A stretch of 43,370 nt of DNA from Candidatus Omnitrophota bacterium (lineage in GTDB: Bacteria > Ratteibacteria > UBA8468 > B48-G9 > DTJG01): positions 1 through 43,370 of the forward strand of contig JAMDAS010000014.1 of the NCBI GenBank assembly GCA_023484085.1, given 5' to 3'. This document shows, in pieces, positions 1-40,612 of the stretch (position 1 is the first letter of the stretch; every line of letters begins with the position of its first letter). The notes beneath the pieces are model-generated. The model made no database searches, was not told the DNA's origin, and saw only the letters and a list, made by a program, of their open reading frames with translations. The translations under genes were made by a program, and so were the position numbers.

Positions 1-127
1 ATAATTTACTGAGCTGAAGTAGGAAATAAGTTCTGGATTGCTCTTCTCTTCTTTGTAAAAACATTCTTTCAAACAAAGCCTCAAAGACAATCCAAACTTA
101 TTTCAAACACCGTTCACTGAGTATTTT
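1..127. repeat. Fold-back repeat family, copy 1 (cut by window edge)
   Basis: This is the first of three copies of an intergenic repeat. Positions 1-126 align without gaps to 13277-13402, with four visible differences, two of them in the last 113 bases. The body is an imperfect hairpin: 24-40 pairs with 88-103 with a one-base bulge, and CTTTGT (51-56) pairs with ACAAAG (73-78). The right end (about 112-127) matches the right terminal arm of the other copies; the left terminal arm lies outside the window. It ends 15 bases before the stop codon of the minus-strand ABC exporter, so it sits between that gene and whatever follows. It looks like a MITE or a conserved structured element. No coding potential is seen. 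Confidence 0.85.
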
Positions 128-142
128 CTGGCGTTTTATTTC

Positions 143-1954
143 TTACGGCCTATATTTTTTTACCTGGGAATATTGAAGGTCCCAAAGGTGTGCATACAGT
201 CCTTTTTTCATCAGAAGCTCATCATGGGTTCCTTCTTCCTCTATCCTGCCTTTTTTAAGTACAATAATTCTATCCAGTTCCTTCACCGTGGATAATCTAT
301 GGGCTATAAACATAACCGTCCTGCCTTTTATTACGTTATCAAGTGCCTGGTGAAGAAACTTCTCGGAATCCGCATCCAACGAAGCACTAATCTCATCAAG
401 AATTAAAATAGATGGCTCTTTCAGGATTGCCCTGGCAAGGCAGATTAACTGTTTTTGTCCGCCGGAAAGGGTTAGCCCTCTTTCCCCTATAACTGTTTCA
501 TATTTTTCAGGTAGATTTTCCACGAATTCTGAAACCCTGGTTATTTTTACGACGCTATCAAATTTTTCTTCACTTACGTCTTTTAATCCAAAAACAATAT
601 TGTTTTTTATCGTATCTGAAAACAGGAATGGTTCCTGGGTAACAAGCCCTATGTGGGACCTTAAACTTTGAAGCGTAAAGGTGCTTATTGGCTGACCATC
701 CAGCAGAATTTCTCCTTCCCGGAGTGAATAAAAACGAAGAAGAAGACCAGAAATTGTGCTTTTGCCTGCTCCCACATGCCCAACTATGCCTATCTTTTCC
801 CCTGCTTTTATTTTAAGGTTTAAATCATTGAGGACATTAACCTTTTCATACTCAAACCATACATGTAAAAATTCTATCTCTTTTTTTATGCCTTTAAATT
901 CCTCCTTCCCATCATCCTTTACGTCAGGGGTTTCTTCAAGAAGGTTATAAATCCTGGGAAATGCAGAACTTGACTGGTATATTGAAGCCGAAGAGGCAAG
1001 AATTGTTTTTATAGGATTAATCAGAGAACCAAGGCATGTAAGATATAAAAGAAGAAAACCGGGGGAAAAACTTCCTGTGAGCACCTTTTGTATACCTGCA
1101 AAAATAATAAAAGCCACCACGATTGTGGTAATAACCTCAGTAAAAGGGCTTACGGCCCCCACCCGTTTTATGACTGACATGGTAAGGCGGAATATCCCGT
1201 TGTTTTCATCAGCAAATTTTTTTATTATTCTTTTTTCCTGGTTATATGCTTTTATAACAGGCTGGGCATACATACTCTCGGAAATTACATTTCCGAGATT
1301 TGCATAATTGGTCTGTATCTGCCCTGTCAGCTTTCTCAGTTTTTTACCAATATTTATCACAGGGAAAACAATTGCAGGAAAAACAATTACTGCACCAAGA
1401 CTGAGTTTCCAGTCAATAAGAAATATCACCAGCAGATAAAACAGGGATTCTATGGATTTCATAAAAATAAGAGGAAATTCCCTGGAAAATATGCTATTGA
1501 TAAGATTTATGTCATATATCATTCTTGTGGTAATCTCACCTGTTCTTTTTTTACTGAAAAACCTCATTGAAAAAGACTGGATTTTTTCATAGATGTTCAG
1601 TCTTAAATCCCTGATGATTTCATTACTGAAATAATTGAGAAAGTAATTCTGGAGATAGTACATAAGCCCTTTTAAAAAAATAATACACACAAGAAAAAAA
1701 AGAACGTATCTCAGGAGAACAAGAGGTTGTAAAAAATTAAGCTGAGCCGTTAAAACCTGAAGGAAATGGAAGGAGGCAAGTCCTTTCGGAAGAACAATAC
1801 TGGTTTTGGCAAAAAGCCTGTCCATTAAAGGAACAATAGTGGTAAAAGATATACCCGCCGTTAAACTTGTCAGAATACTGGCAATAATACCATAAACAAG
1901 ATACTGGTAAGAGATTTTTGCATAGTTTTTTATTTTAAAATATTCTTTAAACAT
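143..1954 (-). CDS. msbA: MsbA-type lipid exporter, ABC transmembrane plus ATPase half-transporter
   Basis: This 603-residue protein has the usual length and layout of a homodimeric type IV ABC exporter. An N-terminal membrane domain (about residues 15-330, with hydrophobic stretches near 20-45, 85-105, 170-205 and 280-320) precedes an ATPase domain. The Walker A motif GHVGAGKST is near residue 392, the signature LSGGQ near 496, Walker B runs into ILILDE with the catalytic Glu near 521, and the H-loop His is near 552. Its start overlaps the end of lpxB by 8 bp. That neighbour makes lipid A-core flipping across the inner membrane the most likely role. Many multidrug exporters share this fold, so the substrate is an inference from context. 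It is the last gene of the long minus-strand run in this window. Confidence 0.8.
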   Translation of the reverse strand: MFKEYFKIKNYAKISYQYLVYGIIASILTSLTAGISFTTIVPLMDRLFAKTSIVLPKGLASFHFLQVLTAQLNFLQPLVLLRYVLFFLVCIIFLKGLMYYLQNYFLNYFSNEIIRDLRLNIYEKIQSFSMRFFSKKRTGEITTRMIYDINLINSIFSREFPLIFMKSIESLFYLLVIFLIDWKLSLGAVIVFPAIVFPVINIGKKLRKLTGQIQTNYANLGNVISESMYAQPVIKAYNQEKRIIKKFADENNGIFRLTMSVIKRVGAVSPFTEVITTIVVAFIIFAGIQKVLTGSFSPGFLLLYLTCLGSLINPIKTILASSASIYQSSSAFPRIYNLLEETPDVKDDGKEEFKGIKKEIEFLHVWFEYEKVNVLNDLNLKIKAGEKIGIVGHVGAGKSTISGLLLRFYSLREGEILLDGQPISTFTLQSLRSHIGLVTQEPFLFSDTIKNNIVFGLKDVSEEKFDSVVKITRVSEFVENLPEKYETVIGERGLTLSGGQKQLICLARAILKEPSILILDEISASLDADSEKFLHQALDNVIKGRTVMFIAHRLSTVKELDRIIVLKKGRIEEEGTHDELLMKKGLYAHLWDLQYSQVKKYRP

Positions 1955-3065
1955 TTTTCAGGATAAATTCGGCTGCTTTTTTGCTTACAGAAGGGTTCCC
2001 GCAGAGCTTTTTTGTTTCCCTGAATCCTTCTTTTTGTTTTTCTATTTCCTCTTTGTTGTCAAGTAATAGAATACATCTTTTCCGGATTTCCTCATAATGC
2101 ATATTTTGTAAAAACTCCGGGACAATTTGCCTACCACCGATAATATTTACAGGGCTTATATATGGCAATTTTATCATAAATCGTAAAATTAAATAATTGA
2201 CAACGTTCATCTTATAGAAAACAAGCATTGGTCTGTTGACAAGAGCAACCTCAAGGTTCATTGTCCCTGAAGCACAAAGACAAAGAGAGGATGCAGAAAC
2301 AAGTGCCTGGGAATTGCCTTCCCATACATGAAAAGAGGTTTTATGCTTCTCCTGGATGTCATCTATTATCTTTTTTATTTCTTTTGAAACTGAAGAAATT
2401 GCAAACTGGACGTCTGTTGAGACAGAACCCATACCAGATGCAATTTTTAAAAAAACAGGCAACAGATTTACAACCTCGGATTTTCTGCTTCCGGGGAAAA
2501 AACCAATGACTTTTTTTTCTTTTTTCAGTCCTGTTTTTGTCCAAAAATCCTCTTTAATATTTTGTTGTTCAATCAAGTCAACAACCGGATGTCCAAAATA
2601 AAAACAGGGGATACCTTCTTTTGAATACAAAGCATTTTCAAACGGGAATATTGTAATAACCGAAGAAAAATGTTTTTTTATTATTTTTATTCTTTTATAC
2701 TCATGCGCCCAGAGCTTGGGGGGAATATAATAGATTTTTTTCAGACCTGCAAGCCTTTGTGCAAGTTTAAGATTAAACCCGGGATTATCAATAAAAACAA
2801 CTAAATCAGGTTTTTCTGATTTTATTTTTTTTTCTGCTCTTTTTAGAAATCTTAAGAAAGGTATAATCCTTAAAAAAACTTCTGTAAATCCAATAAAACC
2901 TGAAGGCGGGTATTCTTCAATTATCTTTACTCCATGTTCCTCAAGGTTTTTCCCTGCAATACCAACCAGTTCTAATGAGGAACTGATTTTTTTTAATTCT
3001 TTAATAAGCAGTTTTGCATAGGAAAAACCCGAAATTTCACCACATACAATAGCAATCTTTTTCAT
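1947..3065 (-). CDS. lpxB: Lipid-A-disaccharide synthase
   Basis: LpxB (GT19) joins UDP-diacylglucosamine to lipid X to form the lipid A disaccharide on the inner face of the inner membrane. The 372-residue length is normal. The N-terminal glycine-rich motif reads GEISGFSYAK, where the family usually has GE(x)SGD, so an Asp is replaced by Phe. Other family blocks are visible: VVFIDNPGFNLKLA, YYIPPKLWAHE, TIFPFE, YFGHPVVD and, near residue 270, CASGTMNLEVAL. It overlaps the MsbA-like exporter by 8 bp and lies 21 bp after the GT39 gene. I see no good ribosome binding site, so translation may be coupled. Presence of lpxB implies an outer membrane with lipid A. Confidence 0.9.
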   Translation of the reverse strand: MKKIAIVCGEISGFSYAKLLIKELKKISSSLELVGIAGKNLEEHGVKIIEEYPPSGFIGFTEVFLRIIPFLRFLKRAEKKIKSEKPDLVVFIDNPGFNLKLAQRLAGLKKIYYIPPKLWAHEYKRIKIIKKHFSSVITIFPFENALYSKEGIPCFYFGHPVVDLIEQQNIKEDFWTKTGLKKEKKVIGFFPGSRKSEVVNLLPVFLKIASGMGSVSTDVQFAISSVSKEIKKIIDDIQEKHKTSFHVWEGNSQALVSASSLCLCASGTMNLEVALVNRPMLVFYKMNVVNYLILRFMIKLPYISPVNIIGGRQIVPEFLQNMHYEEIRKRCILLLDNKEEIEKQKEGFRETKKLCGNPSVSKKAAEFILKNV

Positions 3066-3086
3066 AATAGTAGGGTATTATATCAT

Positions 3087-4592
3087 TTAGAGGTGATATT
3101 TTTCCTTGAAGGGATTTCCGTAATGTGGTAAAAATTTCGGTACGGTATAATAATCTTCAAGAACTTTTTTAAGTATAAGGTTTTTATAACTCCTGAAGAT
3201 GAATTTTTTCCCGAGAACAAAATAAACAGTTGCTCCATCAATTTTTCTTGTCACAATCTTTACCTTCTTAAAAAATTGTCCATAAAATTTTTTATCCGGT
3301 TTTTCCGGACAGAATATTAAAAAATCCTTTCCATTGAATTCTGTAAAATCAGAGATTACGTCATCCTCACGCCCGCTTCTTGAAAGGCTTCCAAAAATCA
3401 CAAAATATCTCCTGTCATAATAAGACATAATTGAAGCTTCAGTATAGCCATGGGCTGCAAGTATATACTTAGAAGGGAATTTTTGTATTTCTTTACATAT
3501 TTCTCCCGGCGATTTAAACATTACCACATCGCTGTACCCGCTGCTTTCATTAAGATTTTTTAATATTTTTTTTAATGAAGTGATTGGAAGGAGGCATATT
3601 GTTGCAATAAGCAAAATCTGAAATCCGGCAAAGAAAACATTATATTTAAAACTATTTTTCAGCTGGTATGTTTCAAGGGTTATAATACACAGGAATAAAA
3701 ATGGAAGGAAAGAAATGGTCCAGTGTATGCCTACGCCGGTTTTGAAGGAAATGTAGAACAAAAAAGCAATCGGAATGACATACAGGAAAATAAAAAACAA
3801 AACCCTTTTTTCCTTAAAATCAAAGAACTTTTTTCCCTTTTTTATAATATAATACAATACCCAGGGGGTTATAAGATAAATCTGGTAGATAAAAAACATC
3901 AAAACATGTTTGGGTTTAAAAATAAAGTGCCTGTTCCTGTATATAAGATTAAATAACAGATTTATCCAGTCATGTGTATAATTCCAGTATGCATTAATAA
4001 AAATCAGAGGGAAAGAGGAAAGTACAAAAATCCAGAAATTTTTCCAGTTTTTTCTGTTGAACATGCAAAATACAAGCAATGCCAAAAAATATAAGACAGC
4101 AAAATATTTACATAAAAAAGCAAGTCCAAAGAAAATTCCTGACAGAATAAAGTATATGGTTTTTTCTCTTTTCATTCCATAAAAGAAAAAAATGCCTGAT
4201 AAAAAGGTAAAAAGCACCAGGGGAATGTCATTAACAAACACAACAGCAAGGATATTTAAAGGTGAAAGAAGAAAAACAGAAGAAATAAGAAATGCTTTTT
4301 CCCTGTCATACTCTTTTAAAAAGAAAAATATAATGATGCCTATAATAATGGTGCTGAAAACAGGGAAAAGTCTGTAGATAAAAACTGCAGGGGTATATCT
4401 GCCAAAGCCGGAAAATAAGTAAGCCAGCCACCATATCATAGGCGGGTGTTCATAATATCCCAGGGCAAGGTGGTATTTGCCCGTAATTATAAAATACGCC
4501 TCATCACCTGTCAGAGGAACAACAAGGGAAAGAAAAATTTTTATCAGTAAAATACCCGCAATCAAAAGAATAAATTTTTTATTTGACGCCAT
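3087..4592 (-). CDS. GT39-family membrane glycosyltransferase (PMT/ArnT-like)
   Basis: This 501-residue polytopic membrane protein has about ten to twelve hydrophobic segments in its first 350 residues and a soluble C-terminal tail. The first external loop carries GDEAYF near residue 29 and YEHPPMIWW near 46, the acidic loop signature of the dolichyl/undecaprenyl-phosphate-dependent GT39 and ArnT-like enzymes. Such proteins move a sugar from a polyprenyl-phosphate donor to a lipid or protein on the periplasmic side. It sits between rsmE (14-bp overlap) and lpxB, so modification of lipid A or another envelope glycolipid is a reasonable guess. The acceptor and sugar cannot be read from the sequence. 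Confidence 0.75.
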   Translation of the reverse strand: MASNKKFILLIAGILLIKIFLSLVVPLTGDEAYFIITGKYHLALGYYEHPPMIWWLAYLFSGFGRYTPAVFIYRLFPVFSTIIIGIIIFFFLKEYDREKAFLISSVFLLSPLNILAVVFVNDIPLVLFTFLSGIFFFYGMKREKTIYFILSGIFFGLAFLCKYFAVLYFLALLVFCMFNRKNWKNFWIFVLSSFPLIFINAYWNYTHDWINLLFNLIYRNRHFIFKPKHVLMFFIYQIYLITPWVLYYIIKKGKKFFDFKEKRVLFFIFLYVIPIAFLFYISFKTGVGIHWTISFLPFLFLCIITLETYQLKNSFKYNVFFAGFQILLIATICLLPITSLKKILKNLNESSGYSDVVMFKSPGEICKEIQKFPSKYILAAHGYTEASIMSYYDRRYFVIFGSLSRSGREDDVISDFTEFNGKDFLIFCPEKPDKKFYGQFFKKVKIVTRKIDGATVYFVLGKKFIFRSYKNLILKKVLEDYYTVPKFLPHYGNPFKEKYHL

Positions 4593-5316
4593 ATTGATAA
4601 AGAATTATACCAAGAGCAACAGTTGCAGCCGTCTCCACCCTTAAAACTCTTTTACCGAGGCTTACAATAAAAAAACCTGAATTCTTTGCGATTTCCGCTT
4701 CTTCCTGTGTAAATCCACCCTCGGGTCCAATAAAAATTTTTATTTTAAATCCTAGTACAGATTTTATATTTTTAAAAACGTCTTTAAGGGGATTTTCTGC
4801 CTGTTCCCAGAAAAAAATTGAATAGTCAGTTTTAACGTTTACAGCATCCTTAAAAGAAAGAGGCTCTATTATATCAGGAATTTCAGGTCTTCCGGAAACC
4901 TTACTGCCTTCAGATAAAATTTTCCTCCATCTTTTCATTTTATTTTCAATTTCTTTTTTTTTAATTTCAATAATACTTCTGGTGGTTTGGACAGGAACAA
5001 TCTGCTTTACTCCTATTTCTGCCGCTTTTTCAATTACCCTGTCAAAAATCCTGTTTTTTGTTAAAGAAAGACACAGGATTATTTCAAGACATGATTCCGT
5101 TTCAAAAGATTTTCTTTTCTCTTTTACCCGGGTTTCAATTATACTATTATGAATATTTTTTATTTCAAGGATATACTCCCATCCGCTCCCGTCAAAACCG
5201 GCAAATACGTCCCCGGGTACCAGCCTAAGAACGTTTTTAACGTAATGAAGTGTTTCACCTTTTATATATAAAAAATTTTCCTGTATTTTACATCCGGATA
5301 AATATACCCGTCTCAT
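4579..5316 (-). CDS. rsmE: 16S rRNA (uracil1498-N3)-methyltransferase
   Basis: RsmE is a SPOUT-class, SAM-dependent methyltransferase that modifies U1498 in the decoding region of 16S rRNA. The 245-residue length is typical. Diagnostic C-terminal motifs are IGPEGGFTQEE and LGKRVLRVETAA, which form the trefoil knot that binds SAM; the N-terminal PUA-like region contains HYVKNVLRL. The central KAAEIGVKQIVPVQTTRS block is also characteristic. It follows yggU with a single-base gap and overlaps the GT39 gene by 14 bp, so it is co-transcribed in the envelope/metabolism run without an obvious functional link. Confidence 0.93.
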   Translation of the reverse strand: MRRVYLSGCKIQENFLYIKGETLHYVKNVLRLVPGDVFAGFDGSGWEYILEIKNIHNSIIETRVKEKRKSFETESCLEIILCLSLTKNRIFDRVIEKAAEIGVKQIVPVQTTRSIIEIKKKEIENKMKRWRKILSEGSKVSGRPEIPDIIEPLSFKDAVNVKTDYSIFFWEQAENPLKDVFKNIKSVLGFKIKIFIGPEGGFTQEEAEIAKNSGFFIVSLGKRVLRVETAATVALGIILYQYGVK

Positions 5317-5317
5317 A

Positions 5318-5539
5318 TTATAAATTTATTGAAATGATTTTTCTTTTTGAAGAGTGTCCGGAAACTATTTCTATTTCTGAGGATGGAATTTTAAAATATT
5401 TAGCCAGGGCCTTGATAATTGCTTTGTTGGCTTTCCCGTCTTCAGGTTTTTCTTTTACGCGAATAATAAAACTATTTTCATATGTTTTTGTTATACCTTC
5501 AATCCTTGAAAGAGGTTTTGCATTCACAAAAATCTTCAT
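5318..5539 (-). CDS. yggU: DUF167/YggU family protein
   Basis: This small 73-residue protein belongs to the YggU/DUF167 family. It shows the family core VNAKPLSRIEG at the start, the block RVKEKPEDGKANKAIIKALAKYF, and EIVSGHSSKRKII near the end. The biochemical function of the family is not established. It lies 5 bp after ackA and 1 bp before rsmE, entirely inside the operon. Confidence 0.88.
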   Translation of the reverse strand: MKIFVNAKPLSRIEGITKTYENSFIIRVKEKPEDGKANKAIIKALAKYFKIPSSEIEIVSGHSSKRKIISINL

Positions 5540-5544
5540 TTTTT

Positions 5545-6759
5545 TTAATGTTCTCTTTTCAAAACAAACTGGTAGGTATCATAGGCAATTCTTAATTCTT
5601 CATCTGTAGGTATTACAAAAACTTTTACAGGAGAATTATTCCTGCTTATTTCTCTTTCTTTTGGTATAGTGGCATTATTTTTTTCTTCATCTAAAATTAT
5701 TCCAAAATTTTCCATGTTTTCCAGGGATTTTTTACGAACCAGGGGAACATTCTCACCTATGCCTGCAGTAAAAATAACAGCATCCGTTTTACCTAAAACC
5801 GCAAGATAAGCCCCGATGTATTTTTTCATGCGATAACAAAATACTTCCAGGGAAAGCATTGCTCTTTCATTCCCTTTTTTTATTTCCCTGGAGATATCAC
5901 GAAAATCATTGGAAATTCCTGACAAACCAAGAAGTCCGCTTTCCTTGTTAAGAAGATTATTTAATTGTTTAAAATCAAGGTTCATCTTTTCTGCAAGATA
6001 AAACATTATACCAGGGTCAATGTCACCACTGCGGGTTCCCATTATCAATCCCTCCAGAGGGGTAAATCCCATACTTGTATCAATGGAATGTCCATCTTTT
6101 ACGGCAGTAATACTACATCCATTCCCAAGGTGACAGGTAATAACATTTACCCGGTACTTATCTTTACCCATAAGTTCAGCCGACCGCCGGCTCACATAAC
6201 GATGAGAGGTTCCATGAAATCCATATCTTCTTATGGAAGAGTCCTTATAAAGGCAGTAGGGCAATCCATAAAGATATGCCACTGGTGGGATAGTGGTATG
6301 AAAGGCGGTATCAAAAGCGGCAACCTGGGTACTGCCTGAAAAAAGTTTACGGGAAGCCATTATACCCGCTAAATTATGAGGATTGTGAAGTGGAGCAAGA
6401 TTTTTATATTCTTCAATTTTTTTCAGGACCTCTTCTGTTATTATGACGCTCCTGTTAAATCCCTCGCCGCCATGGACTACACGATGGCCCACCCCTGTAA
6501 TTTCTTTTACGTTTTCAACTACGCCAAGGTTTTTATCCCTGAGATATTTTGAAATAATTTCCAATCCTTCTATGTGATTTTTAATAATAATGTTTACTTC
6601 AAATATTTTGCCCGGGACCTGATGTTTAATATGACTATTTTCTTCTCCAATTTTTTCCATCAGCCCTGACGCGAGAATGTTCTCTTCCGGCATCCGGAAG
6701 ACTTTATATTTGATGGATGAACTTCCGCAATTGATTACAAGTATTTTTTCACTTTGCAT
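5545..6759 (-). CDS. ackA: Acetate kinase
   Basis: AckA interconverts acetate plus ATP and acetyl phosphate plus ADP. The 404-residue length matches the family. The N-terminal phosphate-binding motif VINCGSSSIKYKV, GHRVVHGGEGF, the AFDTAFH block and the ATP-binding motif HLGNGCSI are all present, as is TAGIGENVP near residue 335. It overlaps the ACP gene by 11 bp and precedes yggU by 5 bp. With pta three genes upstream, the operon encodes the complete acetate-acetyl-CoA couple. In an anaerobe this could yield ATP by acetate formation; next to an alternative GlmU it could also supply acetyl-CoA. Confidence 0.95.
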   Translation of the reverse strand: MQSEKILVINCGSSSIKYKVFRMPEENILASGLMEKIGEENSHIKHQVPGKIFEVNIIIKNHIEGLEIISKYLRDKNLGVVENVKEITGVGHRVVHGGEGFNRSVIITEEVLKKIEEYKNLAPLHNPHNLAGIMASRKLFSGSTQVAAFDTAFHTTIPPVAYLYGLPYCLYKDSSIRRYGFHGTSHRYVSRRSAELMGKDKYRVNVITCHLGNGCSITAVKDGHSIDTSMGFTPLEGLIMGTRSGDIDPGIMFYLAEKMNLDFKQLNNLLNKESGLLGLSGISNDFRDISREIKKGNERAMLSLEVFCYRMKKYIGAYLAVLGKTDAVIFTAGIGENVPLVRKKSLENMENFGIILDEEKNNATIPKEREISRNNSPVKVFVIPTDEELRIAYDTYQFVLKREH

Positions 6760-6997
6760 CTACGTATTTTTTAATAAATTCTATTGCTTTTTCAACTGTT
6801 TTTATATTTAAAGCAGCGTCTTCTTCCATTGAAATGTCAAACTCACTTTCAAAGCCCGCCACTAATTCCAGGCTCTGGATACTTTCTGCACCCAGGTCCT
6901 CAACAAACCTGCTTCCCTGCTTAATTGTATCCTCAGGTACGTTCAAAACCTGTGATACCACTTTCTTTACTCTTTTTTCAATCTCCTGTATTTCCAT
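6749..6997 (-). CDS. Acyl carrier protein (stand-alone, non-canonical DSL site)
   Basis: This 82-residue acidic protein has the four-helix ACP pattern. The phosphopantetheine site reads EDLGAESIQSLEL, so the Ser near residue 40 follows Glu and precedes Ile, where housekeeping AcpP has Asp-Ser-Leu. The tail contains EDAALNIKTVEKAIEFI, as in AcpP. It is not beside fab genes; it lies between the alternative GlmU and ackA in a run that ends in lpxB and an MsbA-like exporter. It could be the main AcpP of the cell or a dedicated acyl donor for lipid A acylation. The sequence alone does not decide. Confidence 0.88.
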   Translation of the reverse strand: MEIQEIEKRVKKVVSQVLNVPEDTIKQGSRFVEDLGAESIQSLELVAGFESEFDISMEEDAALNIKTVEKAIEFIKKYVDAK

Positions 6998-7007
6998 TGT
7001 TTCTCCC

Positions 7008-8261
7008 TTATCTTTGAGTTTTTTTGATATATTTATTTCTTAATGACTGTGTCTGCTCATATATATACCTGATAATATTTTCCTCTTCCTGTAAAAGCTC
7101 TGTATTTCTCCGTGCCATTGCACGCCGGGCTGTTTCAAGCATTGTTTCAATACCAAAACCCTTCATATATTTTCCATTTATAAACCAGATAAAAGAAGGG
7201 AAAAATTTAGGTAGTATCCCACCAGCCGTGATGTTACACATTATTCCTGTCACTGTTCCTGTATTTAATAACACCCCAATACTGGTTTTGGTGTGGTCCC
7301 CAATAAAAGAACCCACCTTTAAATCACCCGTATCAACCAGGCTGTCATTCACATAAACACTCACGGTGGAATAATCATTTTTAAGGTCACTATTGGTGGT
7401 TAAAGCCCCAAGATTGACCCATTCACAGACATAGGCATGACCAATAAATCCATCATGATATTTGTTGCTATACCCATGGAAAATACTTTCCTCCACTTCA
7501 CCACCAATTCTACAGCATGGGCCAAAACTATTGCCTTCTCTGATATTGGCACCAGGCATAATATCTGTTGCTTCACCAATATAACATGGCCCTTTTATCC
7601 GGGTATAAGGGAAAATTTTTACTTTCCTGTCAATAAAGATTGAACCGTCATTTGTATCCAAAACCACAAAAGGATGAATTTCTGTCTCCCCTGCTACGTA
7701 CAATCTGTCTTCAGGCCCATAGACAACTGTGCTTGAAGATACCTTTCCTTCTATACCTTTTTTACTCTTATTGTTAAAGTCAATCTCAAGCATTTCAGAA
7801 TTATAATGCACCAAATTCCATGGATAATTGATAATTTTGGCTTGTATAGAAATGGCAGGAAGTGATTTTTGAATTTCAGCAAGAAAAGAATAAAGGTCAC
7901 CGTCCCAGAATTTATTTATGGTCTCTTTACGGATAACTGCATAAACAATATCCCCTTCTGACGTAAAGATTGCTTCTTCTTCCAGAGTCAGATTATCCGC
8001 CGGTTTTGCCAGCCAGCGGCCATTTACCAGGACTATATCTTCTGTCCAAAAATCTTTTTTATTAACAGGCTGCCGGTATTTTTTTTGAATCAGTGGAGCA
8101 AGATAATCTCGTATCCATAAACCAGTTTCCATACCGTGTATTTTAGGCAGAATTTTTTCAAGAAGATTAGTTGCTCCGCATTTCAGCTCAAAAACAGGTC
8201 TTAAATAAGTCAGTGGTGTTAAATCCATCCATTTCTCATCTTCATAAATCAGCGCTTTCAT
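7008..8261 (-). CDS. Alternative GlmU-type sugar-1-phosphate nucleotidyl/acetyltransferase
   Basis: This protein of about 417 residues resembles the alternative bacterial GlmU family. An N-terminal nucleotidyltransferase-like domain starts MKALIYEDEKWMDLTPLTYLRPVFELK. A left-handed beta-helix acyltransferase domain (about residues 190-370) shows hexapeptide repeats such as IKGPCYIGEATDIMPGANI. The open frame runs further upstream, but the ATG at 8259-8261 has an AAGGA ribosome site and avoids overlapping pta, so I chose it. Known relatives are predicted to make UDP-GlcNAc or similar UDP-sugars from the sugar 1-phosphate and acetyl-CoA. Its neighbours nagB, pta and ackA supply amino sugar and acetyl units, and glmM lies at 18609. 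The substrate is inferred. Confidence 0.8.
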   Translation of the reverse strand: MKALIYEDEKWMDLTPLTYLRPVFELKCGATNLLEKILPKIHGMETGLWIRDYLAPLIQKKYRQPVNKKDFWTEDIVLVNGRWLAKPADNLTLEEEAIFTSEGDIVYAVIRKETINKFWDGDLYSFLAEIQKSLPAISIQAKIINYPWNLVHYNSEMLEIDFNNKSKKGIEGKVSSSTVVYGPEDRLYVAGETEIHPFVVLDTNDGSIFIDRKVKIFPYTRIKGPCYIGEATDIMPGANIREGNSFGPCCRIGGEVEESIFHGYSNKYHDGFIGHAYVCEWVNLGALTTNSDLKNDYSTVSVYVNDSLVDTGDLKVGSFIGDHTKTSIGVLLNTGTVTGIMCNITAGGILPKFFPSFIWFINGKYMKGFGIETMLETARRAMARRNTELLQEEENIIRYIYEQTQSLRNKYIKKTQR

Positions 8262-8281
8262 TTTCTTATCCTTTCCAGGAG

Positions 8282-13226: not shown

Positions 13227-13403
13227 GTAAATATTCACTAAGACAGTGTTTCCGCCTAAAAGATTGGCGGACAGGTATAATTTACCGGGCTGAAGCAGGA
13301 AATAAGTTCTGGATTGCTCTTTTCTTCTTTGTAAAAACATTCTTTCAAACAAAGCCTCAAAGACAATCCAAACTTATTTCAAACACCGTTCACTGAGTAT
13401 TTA
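13227..13403. repeat. Fold-back repeat family, copy 2
   Basis: This is the complete copy of the long subtype, about 177 bp. The terminal arms (GTAAATATTCACT at 13227 and its diverged complement ending at 13403) enclose the conserved hairpin body shared with copy 1. An extra short palindrome TCCGCC...GGCGGA (13251-13271) is absent from copy 3. The right end overlaps the 3' end of coaB and supplies its stop codon (13390-13392). The left end stops just before the ribosome binding site of the HtrA gene, so the repeat fills the whole gap between the two genes. Confidence 0.88.
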
Positions 13404-14040
13404 TTATTTGTTTTTGTTCAAACAAGTTTTCTATTCTTTTCAGTATTATACTGGACAATCTGATTTTTGTAAAACCTGTGCAATTCTCAATGGTTTTATC
13501 AGGAAAAAGTATGAAAACCCTGCTTTTTTTATCACCCTGGCCAAAATAAGAAACGTCATTTATAATTACCATATCCATGTTTTTTTCTTTCATCTTTTTC
13601 CACCCGTTTTCAAGAAGATGAGAACTTTCAAGGGCAAATCCTGCAACGAGCTGGTTTTCTTTTTTTATTTTTGTAATGTTTTTCAAAATATCAGGATTGG
13701 GAACAAGCTTCAGGTTCCAGGAAGACTTTTTTTTCAGTTTTTCAGAATGTTTTTTTTCCGGTCCCCAGTCACTTACGGCTGCACTCATTATCAGGGCATC
13801 ATTTAATGGAAAATTTTTCAGGACAGCATTAAACATATCCATGGCAGACAAAACTGATATAATTTTAACCCCTTCCGGACATTTCAGGTATGCAGGTCCT
13901 GAAATCAGCGTAACACTATGTCCTGAATCTTTTGCTTTTTTTGCAAGAATATAGCCTAATTTACCGGTTGCCGGGTTGCTTATAAATCTTACAGGGTCAA
14001 TGAACTCCCTTGTGGGTCCTGCAGTTATCAGTATTTTCAT
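13390..14040 (-). CDS. coaB: Phosphopantothenate-cysteine ligase, stand-alone CoaB
   Basis: CoaB joins cysteine to 4'-phosphopantothenate in coenzyme A synthesis. In most bacteria it is fused to CoaC; here only the CoaB domain (about 216 residues) is present, beginning MKILITAGPTREFIDPVRFISN with the nucleotide-binding motif NPATGKLG. The block AAVSDWGP and the AGFALE motif also fit. The frame extends to a TTG at 14052, but the ATG at 14038-14040 gives the natural N-terminus. The last few residues and stop codon are encoded by the end of repeat copy 2, suggesting the original C-terminus was replaced or extended. No CoaC is visible in the window. Confidence 0.85.
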   Translation of the reverse strand: MKILITAGPTREFIDPVRFISNPATGKLGYILAKKAKDSGHSVTLISGPAYLKCPEGVKIISVLSAMDMFNAVLKNFPLNDALIMSAAVSDWGPEKKHSEKLKKKSSWNLKLVPNPDILKNITKIKKENQLVAGFALESSHLLENGWKKMKEKNMDMVIINDVSYFGQGDKKSRVFILFPDKTIENCTGFTKIRLSSIILKRIENLFEQKQIINTQ

Positions 14041-31842: not shown

Positions 31843-31876
31843 ATCATTCACATCCACAAACGGATAGGAGAAAAAT

Positions 31877-32881: not shown

Positions 32882-32902
32882 AAATTGCACAAATTAATCA
32901 AT
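32878..32902. repeat. 25-bp direct repeat, left copy
   Basis: These 25 bases (starting CTGAAAATTGCACAAATT) recur exactly at 34118-34142, 1,240 bases away. The left copy includes the stop codon of the UroD-like gene. The two copies frame a single DUF4143-type ATPase gene, as a target-site duplication or recombination scar would. Confidence 0.9.
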
Positions 32903-32975
32903 GGCATTTGAGAAGTGATGATATCAATAATTTTATGATTTGCATTTATTCCGAAAATATGTTAAGTATACTTAC

Positions 32976-34112
32976 ATGATAGAAAGACCTTTCTGGGTGC
33001 AGCTCATTGAAAAAGGATGGAAAGAAACACCAATCGTATGGCTTGCTGGCGTTAGACGTTCTGGTAAAACCACTTTAGCCAAAAGCTTTGGCTCAGACAA
33101 AATTCTTTATATCAACTGTGATTTGCCCGCCACAGCTGACAGAGTTTCTAATCCGGAATTTTTCTATCGCAACTGCGATAAACCAATTGTGGTTTTTGAT
33201 GAAGTGCATCAACTCAAGGACCCCAGTTTATTACTTAAAATTGGAGCCGATGTTTTTCCGGAAATTAAAATACTGGCCACAGGTTCTTCATCGCTTATTG
33301 CCAGCCATAAGTTCCGCGATACTTTGACTGGCCGCAAACGATTGGTACGTCTTACACCTGTTCTTTGGAATGAATTATCTGCTTTTCACAATACTGTCTT
33401 GATTAAACGATTATATCAAGGCGGTCTACCTGAAGCTTTACTTTCTGAATCCAAAAACACTGGTTTTTATAGGGAATGGATGGATTCACTCTTTGCCAGA
33501 GACATTCAAAAGCTTTTTGCGTTTCGCAATCCAGACAAGTTTAATGCGCTCTTTGAGTATGTTATGAAACAAAGTGGCGGATTGTTTGAAATTACCCGCG
33601 CGGCTGGAAATTTGGGCATCAGTAGAGCCACTGTGGAAAATCATGTATTGGCACTTGAGGTAACCAATACGATTTCGATATTGAGACCGTTTCATGGGGG
33701 CGGTAAAAAAGAATTAATAAAAACACCTAAAATATACGGATTTGACACAGGTTTTATAAGTTTCTGCCGAGGGTGGGATCCTTTAAGAACAGATGACTAT
33801 GGAATCTTATGGGAGCACATGGTTTTAGAGTATCTCCATGCTCATGTGCCTAATCTACGTATTCAATTTTGGCGAGATGCTTCCGGACGAGAAGTTGATT
33901 TTGTAATACCGCATAATCGGGATCGTATAGACGCGATTGAATGTAAATGGACGTCTGATTATTTTAACCCGGCCTCGCTTAAAGTTTTTAGAACGCACTA
34001 TTCACACGGACACAATTATCTTGTATGTCCAATAAATGAACCGGGGTATTTTAGAAAAATTGCCGGATTGGATATATGGATATGCAGCCCTAATGACTTA
34101 TTTAGGGAATAA
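32976..34112 (+). CDS. AAA-type ATPase with DUF4143/PD-(D/E)XK-like C-terminus, second copy
   Basis: This protein of about 378 residues is in the same broad family as the gene at 29791 but only distantly similar. Walker A is GVRRSGKT (25-32), Walker B IVVFDEVHQ (71-79), and ILATGSSSLIAS lies near 98. The C-terminus carries REVDFVIP...DAIECKW, the nuclease-like Glu/Asp...Glu-x-Lys pattern. The frame opens at a TTG at 32940, but the ATG at 32976 gives the normal N-terminus. No good ribosome site precedes it; a TATACT hexamer ends three bases before the ATG. It stands alone between two exact 25-bp direct repeats and is probably a horizontally acquired cassette. Confidence 0.83.
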   Translation: MIERPFWVQLIEKGWKETPIVWLAGVRRSGKTTLAKSFGSDKILYINCDLPATADRVSNPEFFYRNCDKPIVVFDEVHQLKDPSLLLKIGADVFPEIKILATGSSSLIASHKFRDTLTGRKRLVRLTPVLWNELSAFHNTVLIKRLYQGGLPEALLSESKNTGFYREWMDSLFARDIQKLFAFRNPDKFNALFEYVMKQSGGLFEITRAAGNLGISRATVENHVLALEVTNTISILRPFHGGGKKELIKTPKIYGFDTGFISFCRGWDPLRTDDYGILWEHMVLEYLHAHVPNLRIQFWRDASGREVDFVIPHNRDRIDAIECKWTSDYFNPASLKVFRTHYSHGHNYLVCPINEPGYFRKIAGLDIWICSPNDLFRE

Positions 34113-34117
34113 AAGTG

Positions 34118-34142
34118 CTGAAAATTGCACAAATTAATCAAT
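34118..34142. repeat. 25-bp direct repeat, right copy
   Basis: Exact copy of 32878-32902. It lies between the ATPase stop codon and the promoter of the nifU-larE-mnmA operon. Removing one copy and everything between would join the UroD-like gene directly to that promoter. Confidence 0.9.
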
Positions 34143-34154
34143 TTATGCAATTTA

Positions 34155-34163
34155 TGTTATAAT
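34155..34163 (+). promoter_or_regulatory. Extended -10 promoter of the nifU-larE-mnmA operon
   Basis: TATAAT at 34158-34163 is preceded by TG at 34155-34156, an extended -10. The -35 region has no good match. The ATG at 34191 follows a run of six G residues serving as ribosome site. Confidence 0.55.
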
Positions 34164-34190
34164 ATAGGAATAATTTACGTGGGGGGAAAT

Positions 34191-34439
34191 ATGACGCTCA
34201 GGGAAAAAGTGGAAGAGGCTTTAAAAGAGGTGAACTGTTTTCTCCAGATGGAAGGCGGAAACTGTGAAATAGTTGATGTCACAGATGATGGGATTGTAAA
34301 ACTAAAACTCCAGGGGTCATGCGAAGGATGTCCTTTTTCCGAGATAACGCTCAAGATGCAGGTGGAAAAAATCATTAAGGAAAGAGTCCCGGAGGTAAAA
34401 GAAGTCATAAATGTTGAAACCGTTGAAGAAAAAGTTTGA
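34191..34439 (+). CDS. NifU C-terminal-domain protein, second copy
   Basis: This 82-residue Nfu-domain protein has Cys44 and Cys47 in GSCEGCPFSEIT. The frame runs further upstream, but the ATG at 34191 has a GGGGGG site and matches the family N-terminus. It overlaps larE by 29 bp and opens a sulfur-transfer operon. It may carry an Fe-S cluster or persulfide for LarE or MnmA. It differs from the copy at 26614 and is not a recent duplicate. Confidence 0.83.
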   Translation: MTLREKVEEALKEVNCFLQMEGGNCEIVDVTDDGIVKLKLQGSCEGCPFSEITLKMQVEKIIKERVPEVKEVINVETVEEKV

Positions 34440-35220
34440 AATACTGGAAAAAATCATCAGGGAATTGAAAAAATCTGCTGTAGCATTTTCAGGCGGGGTT
34501 GACAGTTCATTCCTTCTAAAATATTCAATAGATGTCCTTGGCAGGGAAAATGTTGTGGCTGTTATTGAAAAAGGTGAGCTTTATCCTGAAGAGGAGACTC
34601 AATCCGCCATAAAATTGGCTGAAGAATTCCAGGTTAAATATTTCATAATTGAAGCAGACCAGATGAAGGATACGTATTTCACACAAAATCCCGTTGACAG
34701 ATGCTTCCATTGTAAAAAAGACCTTTTTGGAAACATAAAGAAGATTGTTCCTCCTGATTTTTGCATTGTTGACGGCTCTAATGCAGATGACGTAAAAGAC
34801 TTCAGACCCGGGGAAAAATCAAAAAAATTATTCAACGTCCGTTCCCCATTACAGGAGGCAGAGCTTACAAAAGATGACATAAGAAAAATCTCAAAGGAAA
34901 TGGGACTCCCTACATGGAATAAGCCGTCATTTGCCTGTTTTTCATCAAGAATACCCTACGGAAAAAAAATCACCAGGGAAAAACTATCAAGAATTGAAAA
35001 AGCAGAAAGATATTTGAAAAACAAGGGATTCTGGCAGGTCAGGGTAAGAGATTATGGAAAAACCTGCAGGATAGAGGTTCTTCCTGATGAATTTGCAAAA
35101 ATTTTAAAAGAAAGGGATGAGATTGTAAAAGAACTCAAAAAAACAGGATACCTGTACATAACCCTTGACCTTGCCGGCTATAGGACAGGAAGTATGAATG
35201 AGATCCTTGAAAATTTATGA
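34411..35220 (+). CDS. larE: LarE-type ATP-dependent sulfurtransferase
   Basis: LarE inserts sulfur into pyridinium dicarboxylate to build the nickel-pincer cofactor first found in lactate racemase. This 269-residue protein has the PP-loop SGGVDSS, RCFHCKKDLF, DGSNADD and PSFACFSSRIPYG. Cys176 matches the position of the sacrificial cysteine of the Lactobacillus enzyme (known from the family). No larB, larC or larA is visible in the window, so the cofactor pathway is not proven here; a different sulfur acceptor is possible. It overlaps nifU by 29 bp and mnmA by 4 bp (ATGA). Confidence 0.88.
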   Translation: MLKPLKKKFEILEKIIRELKKSAVAFSGGVDSSFLLKYSIDVLGRENVVAVIEKGELYPEEETQSAIKLAEEFQVKYFIIEADQMKDTYFTQNPVDRCFHCKKDLFGNIKKIVPPDFCIVDGSNADDVKDFRPGEKSKKLFNVRSPLQEAELTKDDIRKISKEMGLPTWNKPSFACFSSRIPYGKKITREKLSRIEKAERYLKNKGFWQVRVRDYGKTCRIEVLPDEFAKILKERDEIVKELKKTGYLYITLDLAGYRTGSMNEILENL

Positions 35221-36287
35221 AAAAACGGGTTATTGTTGCAATGAGCGGCGGTGTGGATTCTTCAGTTGCCGCTTATCTTTTAAGGGAGCAGGGATACGAC
35301 GTAATTGGCATAACACTGAAATTATGGGATTCTGATTGTGAAAAACAGGATGGATGCTGTGGATTTTCAGGAATCATAGATGCAAAAAAGGTTTCAAATA
35401 AGATAGGAATCAGACACTATGTCCTAAATGCAAAAAAAATTTTCAGGGAAAAAATAATAACATATTTTATTGACGGGTATCTAAAAGGACAAACCCCAAA
35501 TCCATGCGCATATTGTAATAATTTCATTAAATTTGATTATCTACTTGAAAAAGCAAAAGAGATTTCATCAAAATTTGTCGCAACAGGCCACTATGCCAAC
35601 ATATTTTTTGACCCGCATAAGCAAAGATACGTTTTAAAAAAAGGTATTGATGAACAAAAGGACCAGTCATATTTTCTTTCACTGTTAAACCAGAAGCAGC
35701 TTTCCTCTATAATCTTCCCTCTTGCCAATCTGACAAAAAGACAGGTAAGGGATATTGCCAAAAAAGTTTCTCTTCCTGTTGCAGAAAAACCACAGAGCCA
35801 GGAAATCTGTTTTATCCCGGATAATGATTACGTAAATTTTATAAAAAATTTTAAAGGGCTCCAATCCATACCTGGTCCTATAAAGGATTTAAAAGGAAAA
35901 AATATAGGAACACATAGTGGTTTAATCTCATATACTATAGGACAGAGAAAAGGTCTTGGAATTTCGTCCGAACATCCACTTTATGTAAAAAAGATAGTAC
36001 CACGGAAAAATACAATATATGTTGCAGATAAAGAGCGTATTTATCAAAAAACATTTTACGTGAACAGTCTTAATCCTGTTTTCTGGAAAGATTTTCCTGA
36101 AAGGTTCAGGTGCAACGTAAAAATAAGACATAAAAATCCTGAAAGCCCCTGTTACGGAAAGCTCGTTGAAGATAATAAGATAAAGGTTACCATGAAACAG
36201 CCGCAATGGGCGCCAACACCAGGCCAATTAGCTGTTTTTTATAGAAAAGATACTGTACTGGGCGCCGGAATAATAGAGAAGACCTGA
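35217..36287 (+). CDS. mnmA: tRNA-specific 2-thiouridylase
   Basis: MnmA thiolates U34 of tRNA-Lys, -Glu and -Gln. The 356-residue protein has the PP-loop MSGGVDSSVAAYLL, the catalytic cysteines Cys97 in GQTPNPCAYCN and Cys198 in PQSQEICFIPD, plus ATGHYA and KDQSYFL. It is the last gene of the sulfur-transfer operon and ends 9 bp before the convergent mfd gene. Confidence 0.94.
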   Translation: MKKRVIVAMSGGVDSSVAAYLLREQGYDVIGITLKLWDSDCEKQDGCCGFSGIIDAKKVSNKIGIRHYVLNAKKIFREKIITYFIDGYLKGQTPNPCAYCNNFIKFDYLLEKAKEISSKFVATGHYANIFFDPHKQRYVLKKGIDEQKDQSYFLSLLNQKQLSSIIFPLANLTKRQVRDIAKKVSLPVAEKPQSQEICFIPDNDYVNFIKNFKGLQSIPGPIKDLKGKNIGTHSGLISYTIGQRKGLGISSEHPLYVKKIVPRKNTIYVADKERIYQKTFYVNSLNPVFWKDFPERFRCNVKIRHKNPESPCYGKLVEDNKIKVTMKQPQWAPTPGQLAVFYRKDTVLGAGIIEKT

Positions 36288-36296
36288 TAAAAGAAT

Positions 36297-39254
36297 TTAT
36301 TGGTTTTTTATCTGGTTTAAAATAAGTTTTTTTGTTTCATTTGGTATTTTTCCAAATCTATCCCTGAGTTCTGTAATTAATTTCTGTGCTTGTGTCATGT
36401 TTTCAATTTCAGAAATTTCCCTGTATATGGAAAATCTGAGCCCGTCATCGGGAAGCCATTGCGGGTCAATAGCCCCTTTCATAAGGGATTTTTCAGAGGG
36501 CGGACGTATTTCCCGCCCTGTAAATCTTGCAGATACCTCTTTCCAGAACTGGCAGTAAAGATTAAATCCCACCTGATTTATAAATCCATGCTGTTTTTTC
36601 CCCAGTATGTCCCCTGCCCCCCTCTGATGTAAATCCATCATTGCCACCTTAAACCCGCTGCCGGGGTTTGTCAGCATACTTAAAGTTCCAAGCCTTTCCT
36701 TGACGTCTTTTACCGCATAAACATGAGGAGGGACAAGAAAATATGCATAAGCCCTGACCTTATACCTGCCAACCCTGCCCCGGAGCTGGTAAAGGTCTGA
36801 GAGTCCAAAAAGATGTGCATTATCAACAATAAGAGTGTTTGCATTCGGGACGTCAAGACCATTTTCTACGATTGATGTGGCAATAAGAATTTTTATTTTA
36901 TCTTTTGCAAAATCCTCCATAACACGGGATAGATTTCTTTCATCCATTCTTCCATGTGCAATTTCAGCAGGAATGCCCGGAAACATGGATTCAATGTTTT
37001 TTTTCACATTTTCAATGTCGTATATTCTATTATGGAGATAAAATATCTGTCCCCCTCTTTCAATTTCTTTTAATATTACTCTTCTTACCAGGTTTTTGTC
37101 ATATCTTCCGATATACGTAAAAACGGACATCCTGCCTGCCGGAGGGGTTTCAATAATGCTTAAATCCCTTATTCCTGAAAGTGAAAAATACAATGTTCTT
37201 GGAATGGGAGTGGCTGAAAGTGTAAGGACTTCTATGTCCTTAAATCTTTTTTTTATCTTTTCTTTATGAAGCACACCAAATTTTTGTTCTTCGTCAATTA
37301 TAAGAATCCCGGGATTTTTAAACTCTACGTCATCCTGTATGAGTCTGTGTGTTCCAATGACAATGTCAATTTTCCCTTCCTTTATTCTGCTTATAACCTC
37401 TTTTTGTTTTTTGGCAGAATAAAGCCTTGATAACATGTCAATTTCAACGGGCAGAGCCTGCATCCTTTCCCTGAACGTTCGTAAATGCTGCTGGGCAAGA
37501 ACTGTTGTGGGACACAATAAAGCAGCCTGTCTGTCCCCCCTGACGACTTTAAGTGCGGCTCTTATTGCCACCTCGGTTTTTCCATATCCTGAATCCCCGC
37601 ATAGCAGTCTGTCCATTATTTTATCGCTTTCAAGGTCTTTTTTTATTTCCTCCACGGCCTTTAACTGGTCAGCCGTTTCCTGGTAAGGAAATTCCTCTTC
37701 AAGCCTGACCTGAATTTCATCATCAACAGGATATTTAAATCCCCTGTTTTTTTTCCTTTCAGTATAAACGTTATAAAGTTCATCCGCCAAATTAAAAATT
37801 TCCCCTCTTACTTTTTCTCTTGCCTTAATCCATGACGTACTTTTTAGTTTACTCAAATTCGGATGGGCTCCTGAACCAATGTATTTTTGAATAAAATCTA
37901 TCTGGCTTAATGGAAGATAGAGCTTATCCCCGCCCGCATACTCAAGCGCAATCATTTCCTCTTTATGCCCATGTATCCTTTCTATCCCGATAAATCTCCC
38001 TATGCCTTCCTGGTAGTGAACTATGTAATCACCATTTTTAAGTTCCTGGTGCCTTGCGATGGGAACGCTTTCAAAAAAATAAGAGGACTGTTTCTGTTTT
38101 TTAAATCCGAGAACATGAGAGGCATTCAGGACAGTAACATTTGCAGATGGAAAAGTAAATGAGGTGCTGATATATCCGGGACAAAAATTCACTTTTCCTG
38201 TGTCTATCTCATGCTGTTGAAGTAAGTTTCTTACGTTTTCAACGTGGAGATTGTTTTCTTCAAAAACATATACGTTTTCATCTTCTCTTCTGTTCCATAA
38301 AAGCCTGTCATTGGAAATCCTGAATCCCGACGGTGTTTCTACAGGGAAAAAGAAAACCTTTCCCGAGAGACTTTTTTCATGTCTGTAATAAAGGGATGAT
38401 GCAGAAAGAGAAAAAACGTAAGAAACGTCAATGAAAATTTTTCTGAATTCCGGGTGTGCATTGTCAGCCATTTTTTCATATATCGTATAAAAATTATCCG
38501 GGTTAAACAAAAAAATGAATTCGGGGTCTAAAACATCCGTTAAGATGGACGTTTTTTCACCCTGAATAAAATCCTCGCTTAAAGGTAAAAGGTTATATTT
38601 TTTTATTTTTTCAGTGGAGGACTGGGAAAAAACATCAAAATATCGTATGGATGAGACAATGTCACCAAGAAATTCAATTCTTACGGGTCTGTCCTCATAA
38701 GGATAAAAATCCACTATACTTCCTCTTCTTGCAAATTCACCCGGGTTTTCCACCAGAGCCGCTTCTTCATAACCTGAAGAAAAAAGAAGTCTTATAAAAT
38801 CATCTCTTTTTAGCTTATAATTTGTATTTATACGAAGAAATGATTGTGGAAATCTTTCTTTTGATGGCAGGGGTATAGACAACGCAGGTATGTTGGTAAC
38901 AATAAGATTGTTTTTAGAGGATAATACAGAAAACATACTTTTTATTCTTAAGACCTCTTTTTCCTCAATTTTATTCTGCGGTGGAAGATGGGTTTCTCTT
39001 TCAGGAACGTACAGCAGATTTTTTGAAAAAGTCCTGATATTGGAAAACAACGTATCTGAATCTTCAGGAGACGAACATATAATAAGCATATTACCGGAAA
39101 GATTTTTAAAAAATGAGGAAATTATTATTGCGTGGAATGTTTCACTATCAGCCACAATGGAACATTTTTTACCTTCCAGCAAAGATTTAAAAAGAACCTT
39201 ATATTCTTGTGTTTCCTCTATAGCCTTTAAGAGCTCTTTATTTTCCAAGTTCAA
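36297..39254 (-). CDS. mfd: Transcription-repair coupling factor Mfd
   Basis: Mfd removes RNA polymerase stalled at DNA damage and recruits UvrA. The 985-residue protein has a UvrB-like N-terminal part (ERETHLPPQNKIEEKEVLRI), the RNA-polymerase-interacting domain (DYIVHYQEGIGRFIGIERI near 415), and a RecG-like helicase with CGDSGYGKTE, IIDEEQKFG, LSATPIPRT and VGRYKVRAYA. It is somewhat shorter than E. coli Mfd (about 1150). The assigned start is TTG, 17 bp inside the upstream GAF-ANTAR gene, with no clear ribosome site, so the exact start is uncertain and translation may be coupled. Confidence 0.93.
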   Translation of the reverse strand: MNLENKELLKAIEETQEYKVLFKSLLEGKKCSIVADSETFHAIIISSFFKNLSGNMLIICSSPEDSDTLFSNIRTFSKNLLYVPERETHLPPQNKIEEKEVLRIKSMFSVLSSKNNLIVTNIPALSIPLPSKERFPQSFLRINTNYKLKRDDFIRLLFSSGYEEAALVENPGEFARRGSIVDFYPYEDRPVRIEFLGDIVSSIRYFDVFSQSSTEKIKKYNLLPLSEDFIQGEKTSILTDVLDPEFIFLFNPDNFYTIYEKMADNAHPEFRKIFIDVSYVFSLSASSLYYRHEKSLSGKVFFFPVETPSGFRISNDRLLWNRREDENVYVFEENNLHVENVRNLLQQHEIDTGKVNFCPGYISTSFTFPSANVTVLNASHVLGFKKQKQSSYFFESVPIARHQELKNGDYIVHYQEGIGRFIGIERIHGHKEEMIALEYAGGDKLYLPLSQIDFIQKYIGSGAHPNLSKLKSTSWIKAREKVRGEIFNLADELYNVYTERKKNRGFKYPVDDEIQVRLEEEFPYQETADQLKAVEEIKKDLESDKIMDRLLCGDSGYGKTEVAIRAALKVVRGDRQAALLCPTTVLAQQHLRTFRERMQALPVEIDMLSRLYSAKKQKEVISRIKEGKIDIVIGTHRLIQDDVEFKNPGILIIDEEQKFGVLHKEKIKKRFKDIEVLTLSATPIPRTLYFSLSGIRDLSIIETPPAGRMSVFTYIGRYDKNLVRRVILKEIERGGQIFYLHNRIYDIENVKKNIESMFPGIPAEIAHGRMDERNLSRVMEDFAKDKIKILIATSIVENGLDVPNANTLIVDNAHLFGLSDLYQLRGRVGRYKVRAYAYFLVPPHVYAVKDVKERLGTLSMLTNPGSGFKVAMMDLHQRGAGDILGKKQHGFINQVGFNLYCQFWKEVSARFTGREIRPPSEKSLMKGAIDPQWLPDDGLRFSIYREISEIENMTQAQKLITELRDRFGKIPNETKKLILNQIKNQ

Positions 39255-40437
39255 GTGCCAAAATAATAGCTTCCGCCACCTCTTTCATGGATTTTCTTTT
39301 ATCCATTGCCTGCTTCTGGATAAACCTGTAAGATTCATCTTCAGACAGGTTTTTTGTTTTCATCAGAATACCTTTTGCCTTTTCCACGATTTTTCTTGTT
39401 TCCAGAGCCTCTTCAATGGCAATTTTTTCTTCCATAAGTTTTGTATTTTCAATGGCAATTGCAGATTGTGCCGCAACGGTTAAAAGGTGGTCTATCTCTT
39501 CTTCTGTAAAATTATGCGGATAGTCTGTATAGCTGTTAATCACTCCTATGGATTTTCCTTTAAGAATCATCGGGACAGCCAAAAGTGAAACAAGCCCTTC
39601 TTTTTTAGCTATTTCAGGATACTGATAAAGGGGTTCTTTTGTAACGTCAAGAATTATAACGGGTTTTTTATTCAGTAATGCCTTTCCACTTATACTTTCG
39701 CCAATTTTCAGGTTTGCCTTGTTAAGATATTCTGAAGAAAGGCTTTGGCTTGCTTTTATTTCCAGTTCATTCTTTTTTTCATCAAGGAGCATTATAGAAC
39801 ATATTTTTGAACCTGTAGCTTCTGCAGTAAGAGAAACAATAAGATTTAAAATCTCCTGCAGATATTTCCCTGAAATAATGGTTTTGCTTATCTGCCCGAT
39901 ATTTTCAAGCTTATGTGCTTTTTTTTCAAGGTCTTCATAGGACTGATATTTCTGGAAGAGTTTACCGGAAATGATACCCGCCTCTTTTATAAATTTTATT
40001 TCTTTATCCTGCCATTTATGGGACCTTCTTTTTTTCAAAGAAAGTACACCGAGTACTTCATTGTCTGTTTTAATGGGCGCTCCAATATAAGATTCATATT
40101 TATCCTCATTCAGTTTATCTATAGGCTTAAATCTCTCATCTTTATAGCAGTTTTTTTCAATACTCAGGACTTCTTCGTTTTTTGCTATCCATCCTGTGAG
40201 TCCTTCACTTGAGGGAAAACTTAATTTATCTATAAGTTGGGGGTATGGATTTTTTGAAGAAAAGAGTTTAAGAATGTTTTTTTCCTTATCCAGCAGGTAA
40301 ATATAGCCGCCATCTGCTTTCATAATTGAAGATATGATGGATATAATGGAATTTGCAAAGTTTTGTAGATTTTCACTTTCTATGTATGCAGAAAGTATTG
40401 TCTCCCAGAAACCATCTGTTTTTTTCTTTTCAGTCAT
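39238..40437 (-). CDS. GAF-GAF-ANTAR RNA-binding regulator
   Basis: This 399-residue protein has two GAF domains (about 15-165 and 180-335) joined by a short helix, then an ANTAR domain (about 340-395: ALETRKIVEKAKGILMKTKNLSEDESYRFIQKQAMDKRKSM). ANTAR domains bind paired RNA hairpins and prevent transcription termination. No signal sequence or kinase is seen; GAF domains probably bind a small ligand. It overlaps mfd by 17 bp. The start lacks a ribosome site, and a TAAAAT (40447-40452) lies nine bases upstream, so the mRNA may be nearly leaderless. Repeat copy 3 begins 22 bases upstream and would include any -35. Confidence 0.87.
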   Translation of the reverse strand: MTEKKKTDGFWETILSAYIESENLQNFANSIISIISSIMKADGGYIYLLDKEKNILKLFSSKNPYPQLIDKLSFPSSEGLTGWIAKNEEVLSIEKNCYKDERFKPIDKLNEDKYESYIGAPIKTDNEVLGVLSLKKRRSHKWQDKEIKFIKEAGIISGKLFQKYQSYEDLEKKAHKLENIGQISKTIISGKYLQEILNLIVSLTAEATGSKICSIMLLDEKKNELEIKASQSLSSEYLNKANLKIGESISGKALLNKKPVIILDVTKEPLYQYPEIAKKEGLVSLLAVPMILKGKSIGVINSYTDYPHNFTEEEIDHLLTVAAQSAIAIENTKLMEEKIAIEEALETRKIVEKAKGILMKTKNLSEDESYRFIQKQAMDKRKSMKEVAEAIILALELGK

Positions 40438-40458
40438 ATTTTTTGTATTTTATAAAAA

Positions 40459-40612
40459 TGTAAATATTCACTAAACAGTGTTAGTAATGGGCTAAGCTGA
40501 AGTAAAAAATAAGTTCCGGATTGCTCTTCTCTTCTTTGTAAAAACATTCTTTCAAACAAAGACTCAAAGACAATCCAAACTTATTTCAAACATCGTTGAC
40601 TGAGTATTTACA
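40459..40612. repeat. Fold-back repeat family, copy 3
   Basis: Shorter, complete copy (about 154 bp). The terminal inverted arms 40459-40482 and 40589-40612 match at 19 of 24 positions. The hairpin body matches copies 1 and 2 with a few substitutions (for example TTCCGG for TTCTGG) and lacks the TCCGCC palindrome of copy 2. It lies between the divergent GAF-ANTAR and AbiE genes. Confidence 0.88.

Follow-up and report, generated by a model that had tools for sequence, protein, structure and literature searches.

The three repeats in the window (the whole 43,370-nucleotide stretch of DNA analyzed here) are most probably, at a rough probability of 0.93, copies of a non-autonomous MITE, whose ends would be recognized in trans by a transposase of the IS66 family and which was presumably mobilized in this way, judging from the sequence. 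In the proposed mechanism, an IS66-family DDE transposase would recognize the outer ends (left, GTAAATATTCACT...; right, GTAAATACTCAGTGAACGGTGT) and insert the element into AT-rich intergenic DNA, giving rise to 8-bp target duplications, and the interior would be a captured hairpin module, present also outside these ends. Thereby, an unrecognized repeat family from an uncultivated lineage of bacteria may be attributed to an IS66 element as its likely driver. The family, an IS66-linked MITE with modular interiors, is genuine, but MITEs are a kind already known; a literature search with partial coverage found no IS66-linked MITE.

Repeat family and its copies in the window

All three copies reported by the first-pass annotation were present, and their limits were refined as follows (coordinates, strand, feature):

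1..128, + strand: MITE copy 1, right part only; 97% identity to copy 2 query 51-176
83..101, - strand: core 3' arm of copy 1 (ATAAGTTTGGATTGTCTTT)
107..128, - strand: right terminal inverted repeat of copy 1 (GAAAATACTCAGTGAACGGTGT)
13227..13404, + strand: MITE copy 2, complete, 178 bp; no counterpart at the orthologous site of the sister genome
13227..13249, + strand: left terminal inverted repeat of copy 2 (GTAAATATTCACTAAGACAGTGT)
13251..13271, no strand: optional REP-like palindrome of copy 2 (TCCGCCTAAAAGATTGGCGGA)
13302..13321, + strand: core 5' arm of copy 2 (ATAAGTTCTGGATTGCTCTT)
13327..13332, + strand: 5' side of the inner stem of copy 2 (CTTTGT)
13349..13354, + strand: 3' side of the inner stem of copy 2 (ACAAAG); the stem holds the sole pair with a compensatory change
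13359..13377, - strand: core 3' arm of copy 2, the exact 19-mer ATAAGTTTGGATTGTCTTT
13383..13404, - strand: right terminal inverted repeat of copy 2 (ATAAATACTCAGTGAACGGTGT)
40452..40459, no strand: left 8-bp target duplication of copy 3 (ATAAAAAT)
40460..40611, + strand: MITE copy 3, complete, 152 bp, lacking the palindrome module
40460..40481, + strand: left terminal inverted repeat of copy 3
40566..40584, - strand: core 3' arm of copy 3
40590..40611, - strand: right terminal inverted repeat of copy 3
40612..40619, no strand: right 8-bp target duplication of copy 3 (ATAAAAAT)

Copy 1 lacks its left part because contig C9 begins at window base 1. The gapless alignment of copies 1 and 2 with four differences, described previously, corresponded to 96.8% identity over 126 bases, and the long stem and the inner CTTTGT/ACAAAG stem were both located; terminal inverted arms, given as 19 of 24 matches in copy 3, agreed at roughly 18-19 of 24 positions. 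The prediction of many copies in the genome was also borne out: the three repeats belong to one family with approximately 40 matches to the 177-bp copy 2 in the draft genome of the organism itself (906 kb; 62.6% complete), with E values down to 1e-89. Since, in addition, the end motif GTAAATAYTCASTRA, allowing one mismatch, occurred 69 times versus twice for a reversed control, the family is not due to chance. The complete copies in the window (152-178 bp) are too short for a transposase and contain no internal ORF of at least 90 amino acids. When the 177-bp element was searched in phages and plasmids, zero matches were obtained.

An empty site was found for copy 2: its two flanks lie 3 bases apart in the sister genome, and the window flanks of 13227-13404, when joined, gave an unbroken alignment with that genome at 79% identity. 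Copy 3 sits at a break in synteny with the sister, in which the gene on the left matches at 82% and the right side matches only repeat copies. An AbiEi-like/AbiEii toxin-antitoxin pair (window 40723-42037) directly adjoins copy 3 at this break.

Terminal inverted repeats, target duplications, and a probable IS66 partner

The ends of the MITEs consist of a terminal inverted repeat of roughly 22 bp, GTAAATAYTCASTGAACGGTGT. Flanking target duplications, suggested earlier as a sign of a MITE, were analyzed in 56 elements bounded by two facing ends, taken from the organism's own genome, the sister genome of the same genus (G001), and two members of the class (G032 and G028). A duplication of 8 bp was exact in 17 of the 56 elements and present with at most one mismatch in 24, versus a mean of 0.6 (maximum, 4) in shuffled-flank controls, and the peak was confined to length 8, with none at other lengths. 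In the window, copy 3 is flanked on both sides by the exact duplication ATAAAAAT, and copy 2 retains 5 of the 8 bases. In the sister genome and class members, the same ends enclose MITEs with different interiors. Five loci in the sister genome (L051-L055) are MITEs of 170-209 bp with the same ends and an interior of GGCACAGAGGCACTAAGGCAC repeats. Separately, L063 and L069 are intergenic 23-bp palindromes (e.g., GTAAATACTCAGTGAATATTTAC), consisting of little beyond both ends fused.

A search for the IS66 transposase family gave one match in the sister genome, adjoining a known end motif. This IS66 element (L116:1593-4079; 2487 bp) has the left end GTAAATATTCACTGAACCCCGT (5' of the genes) and right end GTAAATCCTCAGTCAACCCCGT, is flanked by the exact 8-bp duplication ATAGAAAC, and encodes an IS66 transposase of 587 amino acids, matching PF03050 (2e-48) and NF033517 (6.6e-77; 259 bits against a cut-off of 180), together with a DUF6788 protein of 111 amino acids. 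The tnpA-tnpB-tnpC layout is typical of the IS66 family, but not required; L116 does not have this classical three-gene layout, and carries only the DUF6788 and transposase genes. A locus in a genome of the same family (L120) has three ORFs of 130, 130, and 534 amino acids and GTAAGCG ends. The IS and MITEs share the left-end sequence GTAAATAT but differ at the right end, which is GTAAATCC in the former and GTAAATAC in the latter. Because the MITE ends match those of the sister IS at only 18 of 24 positions, this IS is a relative, not the exact parent. The first-pass annotation had called for a transposase with the same terminal arms; the element thus identified is of the IS66 type, has similar ends, and is intact in the sister species alone.

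The family search yielded no IS66 transposase from the 62.6%-complete assembly of the organism itself. Four copies in this genome (L042, L036, L044, and L065) retain 47-99 bp from the left end of the IS66 element, the best being 87% identical; an orphan DUF6788 ORF is 61% identical to that of the partner, with IS 5' DNA alongside at 72%; and another segment of IS 5' DNA (79% identity) lies behind an end motif. These findings indicate that the lineage carried the IS, of which the present assembly retains remnants only. In the genome collection, the sister contig itself was the only one with a close relative of the sister transposase, and inspection by eye of the ORFs adjacent to solitary end motifs in eleven further genomes from the class revealed no recognizable transposase. 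From the shared ends and duplications, we infer that an IS66 transposase of the L116 type, rather than another, moved the copies. In the organism's own genome, we infer that movement has either ceased or relies on an element located in unassembled sequence. The earlier proposal of a MITE with an absent transposase was, therefore, supported by the copy number, terminal inverted repeats, 8-bp duplications, empty site, and sister IS66 element. The end motif and the length of the target duplication may be used to annotate such repeats across the phylum.

Modules of the hairpin-containing interior

The hairpin core (arms ATAAGTTnTGGATTGCTCTT and AAAGACAATCCAAACTTAT) and the transposon ends, taken together as one element in the first-pass annotation, are separable modules. 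The 19-mer of the core 3' arm was found as an exact match at 41 sites in the organism's own genome and 9 in the sister genome; some cores lack the outer ends, and one (L029) is flipped inside them. The core loop is replaced by a GGCGGA palindrome in L168 (own genome) and L062 (sister genome), and carries a hairpin-rich insert of roughly 95 bp in L170, L174, and L178 (G000 contigs C17, C14, and C16, respectively). The 21-bp palindrome TCCGCC-N9-GGCGGA is optional, being missing in many copies, and recurs apart from the family in both genomes. Since the core occurs alone, flipped, and with swapped loops, and the palindrome is optional, the MITE family is a mosaic, in which hairpin modules can be exchanged between the same two ends.

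The insert of approximately 95 bp contains several nested hairpins (CACCACGACGCCTGTTTTTACCAAACAGGC...TGCACAGGTAGTGCCTGTTCTGTGCAT), and an apparent diverged form of it is carried by L057 in the sister genome. The long-loop core with this insert (the L170 copy) had no match in Rfam. Some cores (L163, L165, L176, and L138) are bounded by another outer inverted repeat, CTGAAATTCYGACATAAG, around which target duplications were found in none of 4 elements.

The core itself may be a nested MITE with the ends ATAAGTTnTGGATTG, moved by a second transposase, that hopped into the IS66-type MITEs; this reading, which adds to the main explanation, is possible, but we consider it unlikely. The numerous exact 19-mer sites in both genomes, the cores without outer ends, the single flipped core, and the proximity of some cores to the different repeat CTGAAATTCYGACATAAG are consistent with such an origin. 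However, solitary cores showed no target duplication by eye, a result shared by the CTGAAATTCYGACATAAG elements, a transposase with ATAAGTTnTGGATTG ends was not found, and the flip may equally be explained by recombination between the arms.

Orientation relative to genes and comparison with known systems

Between co-directional genes (L123-L160), the right end of the right-end copies pointed toward the upstream stop codon in 23 cases versus 2 in the reverse orientation (binomial p = 2e-5; ORF-based gene calls), such that these copies are antisense to the co-directional flanking genes, with the right end usually within approximately 25 bp of the upstream stop codon. In other genomes, the trend was 18 versus 5 (p = 0.01; cruder ORF calls) for elements with other interiors. 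Since the trend is independent of the interior, it is probably a property of the ends or of insertion. It is doubtful, but conceivable, that the copies are more than parasites, in which case the 23:2 bias would reflect selection for, or targeted insertion at, the 3' ends of genes, with the element acting in mRNA as a 3'-end or processing element; in a variant of this proposal, the core would be a second mobile element nested in the first. The bias is, in any case, a testable loose end.

The first-pass annotation also offered a conserved structured RNA as an alternative. A regulatory element, sRNA, or terminator spread throughout the genome, with its hairpin under selection, would account for the long fold-back with an inner stem and for copies located shortly after stop codons with a preference for one orientation; however, the same orientation trend is present in MITEs with other interiors. 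Among 29 aligned cores, 11 of the 16 arm pairs never vary and none of the 16 showed a double change, and, in favor of an RNA, one pair of the inner stem had a compensatory change from G-C to A-U in 10 of the 29 cores, giving 1 compensated pair among 21 stem pairs in total. The arms, almost invariant in both species, exhibit sequence conservation, not structural covariation. With only 1 of 21 pairs covarying, the compensatory-change test failed and a conserved RNA was not supported. The 8-bp target duplications, empty site, and several copies with the loop swapped for an unrelated sequence also argue against this reading, and Rfam, which found one tRNA and nothing else over the window, did not match the window copies; we consider a structured RNA very improbable. 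A terminator role for the core, judged from copies inspected by eye in which no T-run appeared to follow the stem, was rejected.

Spread as REP/RAYT-type palindromic repeats by a Y1 (IS200-like) transposase, to which the recurrence of the 21-bp palindrome elsewhere in both genomes might point, is the least probable reading, because many copies lack the palindrome and because target duplications of 8 bp and inverted repeats at both ends, as present in these elements, are features that Y1 elements are not known to make; disfavored for the whole element by the duplications, it could apply to the palindrome alone.

As an IS66-linked MITE, the window element resembles IS66 sequences of the DUF6788-bearing type (L116) in terminal inverted repeats beginning with GTAAAT and in the 8-bp target duplication, but is gene-less and about 150-180 bp long, whereas the IS66 elements are approximately 2.5 kb. 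In two captured Paracoccus IS66 elements, the inverted repeats are likewise imperfect, and 8 is the value given in what appears to be the target-repeat column of the table (PMC3281130). Among known MITEs, MITECca01 derives from ISCca4 (IS982) and retains parental left-end DNA (PMC9769881), and MITEPsy1 probably originated from ISPsy2 (PMC3189936). Similar to these two, the window family is short and gene-less with ends common to an IS, and, as in MITECca01, some copies in its own genome retain parental left-end DNA; it differs from both in its link to another IS family (IS66) and in an interior of interchangeable hairpin modules. TIMEs, Tn3-derived inverted-repeat miniature elements, are non-autonomous and yield mosaic elements (PMC4133298). 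TIMEs and the window family are both miniature, non-autonomous, and mosaic, but the former have Tn3-type ends and the latter IS66-type ends.
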